Part shown: piece after piece, positions 53,852 through 60,648 of the stretch
How positions within the stretch are numbered: position 1 is the first letter of the stretch
Layout of the letters: each line of letters starts with the position of its first letter
Assembly (NCBI RefSeq): GCF_020215645.1
Contig: NZ_CP084058.1
Span: 11,152,501-11,216,500, forward strand
Direction: 5' to 3'
DNA length: 64,000 bases
Origin: Nonomuraea gerenzanensis
GTDB taxonomy: Bacteria > Actinomycetota > Actinomycetes > Streptosporangiales > Streptosporangiaceae
Translations under genes and position numbers: made by a program
The notes under the pieces: generated by a model
Seen by the model: the letters and a program-made list of their open reading frames with translations, nothing else
Told to the model about the DNA's origin: nothing
Databases searched by the model: none

Positions 53852-55150
53852 TCAACGCGGACGGAACAGACGCAGGTGTTCCTCGCCCACCCGCTCCCGC
53901 AGCTCGTGGTCCTCGACGCCGAGCCCCTCCTCCGGGGCCAGCGCCAGCACGCCCACCTTCCCCACGTGCTGGTTGAGCTGCACCGCGCGGGCCGCCTCGG
54001 CCGCACCGGTCAGCGGGTACACCGCCGAGAGCGTCGGGTGGATCAGCCCGAGCGAGATGAGCCGGTTGACCTCGTGGCACTCCTGATAGTTCGCTCCGTG
54101 GGAGCCGATGATCCGCTTGAGCTTCATCCACAGGTGGCGGTTGTCGTACTCGTGGGCGTATCCGCTGGACGACCCGCACGTCACCACCGAGCCGCCGCGC
54201 CGGGCGACGTACACGGAGGCGCCGAACGTGTCCCGGCCCGTGTGCTCGAACACGATCGCCGGGTCCTCCCCCACCAGCCGCCTGACCTCCGCGCCCAGCC
54301 GCCGCCACGCCTTCTCGTCGCCGAGATCGTCGAACTGCGCGCGGTCGACGACGTGCGGGCAGCCCATCCTGCGCAGCAGCTCCGCCTTCTCCGGGGAGCT
54401 GACCACGCCGACCGGGATGCCGCCGCCGCGCAGCACCAGCTGCACGCCGTACCCGCCGAGGCCGCCGGTGGCGCCCCACAGCAGCACCACGTCGCCCTGC
54501 TTCATGCGCGCGCCGCGCTCGCCGACCAGCATCCGGTACGCGGTCGAGGCGCACAACATGTTGCACGCCGCCTCCTCCCACGTCAGGTGCCGGGGCTTGG
54601 GAAGCAGCTGAGTGGCCTTGACCAGGGCGAAGTCGGCCAGGCCGCCGAAGTTCGTCTCGAAGCCCCAGGCCCGCAGGTCGGCGGCGAGCATGCCGTCGTG
54701 TTGCACGACCGGGTCCTCGCCGTCCACGTACGCGGGGCTGGTCACCACCCGGTCGCCGACCCGCCAGCGGCGCACCGCCCGGCCCGTCCTGACCACCACG
54801 CCCGACGCGTCGGAGCCGAGGACGTGCGTGGGCAGGTCGTGCCTCGGGTCCGTCCGGCCGAACCGCTCCAGGAACGCGAACGTCGGGATCGGCTCGAACA
54901 TCGCCGACCACACCGTGTTGTAGTTGATCGCGCTGGCCATCACCGCGATCAGCACCTCGTCCTCGGCCGGCTCCGGCATCGGCACCTGGCCGACGTGCAA
55001 CGTCCTGCGTACGTCCTTGTCCTGCTCGTCCTGGTCGAAGGTGCCCACCTCGTCCTTGCGCAGGTGGGCGGCCCGGTACGTGGCGGGCACGTCCAGGCGC
55101 GACAGCTCCGCGGGCTCCGCGCCCGCCACCACCGCCTGTGCCAGCGTCAT
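53852..55150 (-). CDS. ccr: crotonyl-CoA carboxylase/reductase
   Basis: A 432-residue medium-chain dehydrogenase/reductase from ATG 55150, overlapping the PKS stop by ATGA. Family marks are TYRAAHLRKDEVG, INYNTVWSAMFEP, HVLGSDASGVVV, WGFETNFGGLADFALVKA, LLWGATGGLGGYGVQLVL and VTCGSSSGYAHEYDNRHLWM. It reductively carboxylates crotonyl-CoA with NADPH and CO2 to give ethylmalonyl-CoA. Coupled translation with a PKS makes it the dedicated supplier of an ethylmalonyl (or related alkylmalonyl) extender. Confidence 0.93.
   Translation of the reverse strand: MTLAQAVVAGAEPAELSRLDVPATYRAAHLRKDEVGTFDQDEQDKDVRRTLHVGQVPMPEPAEDEVLIAVMASAINYNTVWSAMFEPIPTFAFLERFGRTDPRHDLPTHVLGSDASGVVVRTGRAVRRWRVGDRVVTSPAYVDGEDPVVQHDGMLAADLRAWGFETNFGGLADFALVKATQLLPKPRHLTWEEAACNMLCASTAYRMLVGERGARMKQGDVVLLWGATGGLGGYGVQLVLRGGGIPVGVVSSPEKAELLRRMGCPHVVDRAQFDDLGDEKAWRRLGAEVRRLVGEDPAIVFEHTGRDTFGASVYVARRGGSVVTCGSSSGYAHEYDNRHLWMKLKRIIGSHGANYQECHEVNRLISLGLIHPTLSAVYPLTGAAEAARAVQLNQHVGKVGVLALAPEEGLGVEDHELRERVGEEHLRLFRPR

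Positions 55151-60648: not shown

Follow-up and report, generated by a model that had tools for sequence, protein, structure and literature searches.

The window analysed here is a stretch of 64,000 nucleotides from the Nonomuraea gerenzanensis genome (NZ_CP084058.1, positions 11,152,501 to 11,216,500), in which the gene of a type I polyketide synthase (PKS) overlaps that of an enoyl-CoA carboxylase/reductase (CCR). The PKS starts with an ATG at 60648, with GGGAG upstream, and its stop codon ends at 55147 on the minus strand. Pfam and structure matches of the N-terminal acyl carrier protein (ACP) resolve one chain of ACP, ketosynthase (KS), acyltransferase (AT), ketoreductase (KR), ACP and thioesterase (TE) (Pfam: KS 4.7e-91, AT 6.8e-58, KR 3.2e-50, TE 2.8e-14, two PP-binding stretches 3.2e-21). 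The KS, AT, KR, ACP and TE motifs are all intact, and the Pfam scan shows neither a dehydratase (DH) nor an enoylreductase (ER) domain. The CCR exceeds the curated cut-off of TIGR01751 (523 versus 378.6 bits) and is the sole match over that cut-off in the 12.07-Mb genome. The domain order, the GAGH motif at residues 782-785 and the ATGA overlap described in an earlier sequence-only reading were confirmed by Pfam, motifs and coordinates. The features of the pair are as follows.

55147..60648, minus strand: Pks13-like type I PKS, 1833 aa, ACP-KS-AT-KR-ACP-TE
60432..60624 (borders approximate), minus strand: N-terminal ACP, motif GLSSRES, a relative of the FadD32-loaded Pks13 ACP; matches include the Pks13 ACPs 6c4q and 7wrp
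59332..60396, minus strand: KS, with DTACSSS, EAHGTGT and NLGHLEAA
58027..58788, minus strand: AT domain
58294..58305, minus strand: AT motif GAGH, residues 782-785, the Pks13-clade signature
56776..57273, minus strand: KR, with TGGTGKLG, LDD, and Ser and Tyr motifs
56341..56532, minus strand: C-terminal ACP, LGLDSLA
55237..55971, minus strand: TE, with GWSFGG and GAHHLDLL
55147..55150, minus strand: ATGA overlap of PKS stop and CCR start
53852..55150, minus strand: CinF-like enoyl-CoA carboxylase/reductase, 432 aa
54668-54670 and 54095-54097, minus strand: CCR residues Ala161 and Gly352, aligned with CinF A163 and G362

By the LDD motif rule, the KR would be a B-type domain. The PKS gene also holds two in-frame repeats, AHVALD three times after the KS (59152-59214) and a Thr/Arg/Pro repeat (TTTTRP) in the TE region (55837-55902).

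Passages of two studies (PMC11649247, PMC9900942) describe a Pks13 route in which the first ACP is loaded by FadD32 and the second receives its carboxylated acyl unit from the AT, the KS condenses, the TE hands the product to trehalose, CmrA reduces it and MmpL3 exports it. The Nonomuraea PKS keeps the ACP-KS-AT-ACP-TE order of Pks13 and adds a KR ahead of the second ACP, whereas Pks13 itself has no KR and leaves reduction of the beta-keto group to the separate CmrA. In a quick tree of 50 aligned KS-AT regions, the window PKS groups with Pks13 in a clade of 28 rows (SH-like approximate likelihood-ratio test, 99). A more careful KS-AT tree places it with Pks13 in a clade of 23 rows (support 100/99), and an AT-only tree, whose rows included no labelled ethylmalonyl AT, joins the same 23 rows with Pks13 (100/99); these two trees exclude 15 of the 50 rows, which had long branches, nearly duplicated other rows or were outside PKSs (four). 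In the KS-AT and AT-only trees, the window PKS falls outside the branch formed by the Pks13s of the mycolic-acid producers (mycolata). Pks13 rows were defined by the NCBIfam model NF040607, with which 148 genomes of the class were scanned; it passed in 12, of which 11 belong to family f4 and one is G327, which passes through the summed score of a long modular frame, and Corynebacterium glutamicum was positive, serving as control. In the alignment, GAGH occurs in the window PKS and in 16 others of the 21 clade members that are not Pks13 (the remainder have AAGH, twice, and GGAH, twice), while the Pks13s carry GAGH (3/7) or GASH (4/7). None of the 22 PKSs outside the clade has GAGH: they show VASH, YASH, HAFH and other motifs, two having a gap there. 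Among the relatives, the Streptomyces PKS at L208 has the Pks13 domain order without a KR, L188 includes a KR, and L113, L190 and L281 have a KR plus a DH-like piece. On these tree and motif grounds, the PKS is a member of the Pks13 clade and GAGH is a signature of that clade.

This kinship bears on the extender unit. The sequence-only reading held that xAGH marks ethylmalonyl ATs and, with the next gene read as a crotonyl-CoA carboxylase/reductase, saw an ethylmalonyl-specific single module giving a 2-ethyl-3-hydroxy acid or a short iterated product; in its favour, the CCR passes the crotonyl-CoA carboxylase/reductase model. We consider this improbable, since the AT lies in the Pks13 clade, Pks13 itself carries GAGH and the CCR pocket is of the CinF type; ethylmalonyl specificity as deduced from GAGH was rejected because Pks13s carry the motif. 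The passages of an AT review (PMC6164871) give YASH and HAFH, and neither GAGH nor VAGH was found in them. In the PDB, the CCR matches the octenoyl-CoA enzyme CinF best (563 bits), followed by a crotonyl-CoA reductase (505 bits). Its Ala161 and Gly352 stand at CinF A163 and G362, which we take to be pocket-lining residues, with a numbering consistent with the CinF alignment; the crotonyl-type enzymes compared carry Ile and Phe there. Because the CCR has Ala/Gly rather than Ile/Phe, its pocket argues for a branch longer than ethyl. The idea that the CCR sets the extender thus holds for the supply of a 2-alkylmalonyl unit and lacks support for ethyl, the pocket residues being of the octenoyl-CoA type; a 2-alkyl-3-hydroxy acid is still predicted from a KR without DH. 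CinF (cinnabaramide), which shares the Ala/Gly pocket, partners a modular assembly line, whereas the Nonomuraea CCR partners a Pks13-like synthase. A different conserved CCR-bearing PKS cluster (L069-L072, L127) has a CCR pocket of Val/Gly or Val/Ala.

The pocket type follows the linkage: Ala/Gly occurs in 69 of the 70 CCRs called PKS-linked, versus 6 of the 55 not called linked. The one linked CCR without it belongs to L217, where a modular PKS was picked up by a loose threshold, and L190 was missed by the threshold and tallied as unlinked. This count dropped 35 named loci as duplicate genomes (L158-L187, L189, L214, L231, L233, L235), of which L161, L165 and L187 had no twin in it and were hence lost. 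With the loose pick L217 excluded, the CCR lies beside a close relative of the window PKS in 69 other loci, so the pairing is not due to chance and the claim that the two genes belong together stands. The closest CCRs are those of Nonomuraea (up to 95% identity); of 54 genomes in the genus, 27 encode a CCR at 78% identity or more, and 31 give a match of any kind.

Beyond the pair, two further features of the window and several genes past its edge complete the locus.

60860..61963, plus strand, divergent from the PKS: mycoloyltransferase/Ag85-like protein (esterase) with an N-terminal signal-like stretch and triad S207-E314-H345
47229..48443, minus strand: PucR-type regulator

The esterase has both the mycoloyltransferase/Ag85 fold and the Ser-Glu-His triad, and shares these and the signal-like N-terminus with MytA/PS1 and Ag85, at 35% identity to MytA and 26% to Ag85A over the aligned part. 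A glycosyltransferase, a major facilitator superfamily (MFS) pump, an MmpL3-like exporter and a FadD32-like fatty acyl-AMP ligase (FAAL) lie 6-15 kb past the right edge; no FAAL was seen near the PKS inside the window. MmpL3 is the nearest family and PDB match of the exporter, an MMPL protein. The top match of the FAAL is not itself named FadD32; we take the structure 5d6j to be a FadD32. In a FAAL tree, the cluster FAALs and those beside Pks13 fall together (99/98) with four other FAALs outside, which repeats the grouping of the PKS with Pks13; the FAALs of L288-L292 were labelled FadD32 from their position beside Pks13 rather than by a scan. Since this ligase probably loads the N-terminal ACP, the missing loading AT is explained, and the view of the cluster as lacking a loading step and unlike standard assembly lines gives way to that of a Pks13-like enzyme with a KR. 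The FAAL beyond the window, the mycoloyltransferase-like gene at 60860-61963 and the CinF-like nature of the CCR had been overlooked in the sequence-only reading.

Other genes recur around this set. In the window clade, the two halves of the locus are parted by a PCMT-like methyltransferase, a GH36-like galactosidase piece and a sugar-binding ABC-type protein (window ~61960-64000; L138:2961-11217); they lie closer together in other genomes. A conserved secreted-looking family without a Pfam match, c8 (L138:11280-12644, minus strand), occurs in 28 of the 37 closest loci and is absent from all 19 of the more distant set, and its AlphaFold model is too poor to use (predicted local distance difference test 39.7). 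AAA, LysR and AKR genes stand between the PucR regulator and the CCR in the window; a PucR homologue turns up within the stretch fetched for 35 of the 37 closest loci, in many cases adjoining the CCR. A TPR and AAA+ ATPase gene with an NQHPA/NQRPA repeat linker (51824-53239) also lies near the CCR in the closest relatives, L047-L052.

Gene sets related to this one are found in Streptosporangiaceae, Streptomyces and Paractinoplanes as well as in the Frankia family. Our locus table comprises 56 loci, 37 closest (CCR identity at least 74%, G000 included) and 19 more distant. The esterase is present in 33 of the 37 closest loci, the other 4 having had at most 15 kb fetched, and in the 17 genomes for which the far side was fetched we found the FAAL in 16, the MMPL in 16 and the esterase in 14. 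FAAL, PKS, esterase and CCR are co-directional in 14 of 80 named loci (13 from Streptomyces, plus strain OK074, which is unplaced); in Paractinoplanes rishiriensis the esterase runs opposite to FAAL, PKS and CCR, and the fetched stretches of these 15 loci contain no MMPL match. The G019 genome carries a second, more distant copy (L068) in the order FAAL, PKS, CCR, MFS, with the esterase opposed. The Frankia family, f15, was shown to include Frankia sp. AgB1.9 by a 100% DNA match spanning 3001 bases. Two of its genomes (L281, L282) carry FAAL, PKS, esterase and MFS genes, and a third locus, L283, has FAAL, PKS, AccD and esterase. The L283 AccD sits in the slot of the mycolata AccD4 and the Nonomuraea CCR, and is 48-51% identical to the AccD that neighbours Pks13 in all five loci compared. 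With the L281 FAAL as query, 5 of 35 f15 genomes matched at 1e-150, the L283 genome not among them.

Gene content, domains, active-site motifs, kinship and conserved linkage, all directly observed, recall the fadD32-pks13-accD4 locus with Ag85 and MmpL3: alike are the FAAL, the ACP-KS-AT-ACP-TE synthase, the mycoloyltransferase-like and MmpL3-like proteins, the AT motif, and the kinship of KS-AT and FAAL. Each role of the Pks13 route has a counterpart here, namely the FAAL, the CCR for the carboxylase, the KR in cis for CmrA, and the MmpL3-like and Ag85-like proteins. The Nonomuraea locus differs by having a CCR for AccD4 and by its glycosyltransferase and MFS genes, its proteins score below the equivalog cut-offs, and its hosts are outside the mycolata. 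We propose, with a probability of about 0.7, a Pks13-type condensing system built around the PKS and the CCR, whose product would be an alpha-alkyl-beta-hydroxy fatty acid that probably leaves the cell as a glycolipid. In this hypothetical scheme, (i) the FadD32-like FAAL would activate a fatty acid and load the N-terminal ACP; (ii) the CCR would reductively carboxylate a medium- or long-chain 2-enoyl-CoA to a 2-alkylmalonyl-CoA; (iii) the Pks13-type AT would transfer the 2-alkylmalonyl unit to the second ACP; (iv) the KS would join the two chains in a single condensation and the KR reduce the beta-ketone in cis; (v) the TE would release a mycolate-like 2-alkyl-3-hydroxy fatty acid, probably onto a sugar; (vi) the glycosyltransferase, MFS and MmpL3-like transporters would build and export the glycolipid; and (vii) the secreted mycoloyltransferase-like protein would pass the acyl chain on to an extracellular acceptor. 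We infer the chain lengths, the acceptor and all catalytic steps from kinship and linkage. The glycosyltransferase in the locus points to a sugar head that is not trehalose, or not trehalose alone.

Several observations weigh against this proposal. The window PKS scores 980 bits against the Pks13 equivalog cut-off of 2100 and is therefore called Pks13-like, not Pks13; its relatives reach 1165 (Streptomyces, L208) and 1267 (Frankia family, L283). In the class-wide Pks13 scan, the best window stretch scores 820, below several non-clade PKSs (e.g. 850 and 844). The FAAL (542 versus 975 bits for FadD32) and the exporter (478 versus 1400 for MmpL3) also stay below their NCBIfam cut-offs. The FAAL block lies about 8 kb from the esterase in the window genome, which has two further mycoloyltransferase-like paralogues elsewhere (L238 and L241, 42-43% identical to the cluster one). 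The esterase tree leaves its deep forks unsettled; L238 and L241 fall near the cluster esterases, and the generic paralogues L239 and L242 have very long branches. The esterase is present in 9 of the 19 more distant loci and missing from the stretch fetched for the other 10; G118 lacks FAAL, MMPL and esterase in its fetched stretch, and the Frankia-family loci L281 and L282 have neither CCR nor AccD in 20 kb. Mycolic acids are given as absent in the passages of a Nonomuraea species description (PMC10694255), so any product would have to be cryptic, short in chain or free of the envelope. Finally, the best PDB match is MAS both for the whole chain (743 bits; Pks13 685) and for the AT alone (the methylmalonyl-type MAS, 217 bits; Pks13 152). 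The AT nevertheless does not group with methylmalonyl enzymes in the tree, a placement that would have refuted the sequence-only reading. An iterative MAS-type synthase of methyl-branched lipids, which the PDB matches and the similarity of AT and KS would favour, seems very improbable to us: the PKS has no DH or ER found, carries GAGH where MAS has VASH, and the VASH-type ATs compared lie outside the Pks13 clade. MAS-type iteration was rejected for want of DH and ER, despite MAS being the best PDB match.

The same chemistry could also yield a secreted small product, such as a beta-lactone or a free branched acid, with the esterase acting as a hydrolase or in self-protection rather than as an envelope acyltransferase. 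The MFS efflux gene and PucR regulator, the patchy presence within the genus (27 of 54 genomes) and the CCR-made alkylmalonyl units of secreted cinnabaramide and filipin, as given in passages of PMC5187497, are consistent with it. We regard it as rather unlikely, since the MmpL3-like, Ag85-like and FadD32-like genes jointly fit the mycolate route.

Among the matches listed in open-access literature searches, there was no paper on a Pks13-type locus outside the mycolata. Passages of a 2023 structural preprint (PMC9900942) call the fadD32-pks13-accD4 locus exclusive to mycolic-acid producers, a statement that a Pks13-related locus in other actinomycetes qualifies. The locus represents a natural exchange of AccD4 for a CCR and bears on the origin of mycolic condensation. 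More broadly, we see about even odds for the following view. A Pks13/FadD32/Ag85-type system would let many actinomycetes regarded as free of mycolic acids (members of Nonomuraea, Streptosporangium, Planobispora, Planomonospora, Streptomyces, Paractinoplanes and the Frankia family) produce and export an alpha-alkyl-beta-hydroxy acyl lipid, with an MmpL3-like exporter in Streptosporangiaceae and the branch mostly from a CO2-fixing CCR instead of AccD4; the mycolata would then possess a specialised offshoot of something older and more widespread. Soil actinomycetes described as being without mycolic acids may thus produce an unrecognised mycolate-like lipid, and our reading predicts the lipid class to seek in ordinary soil strains.
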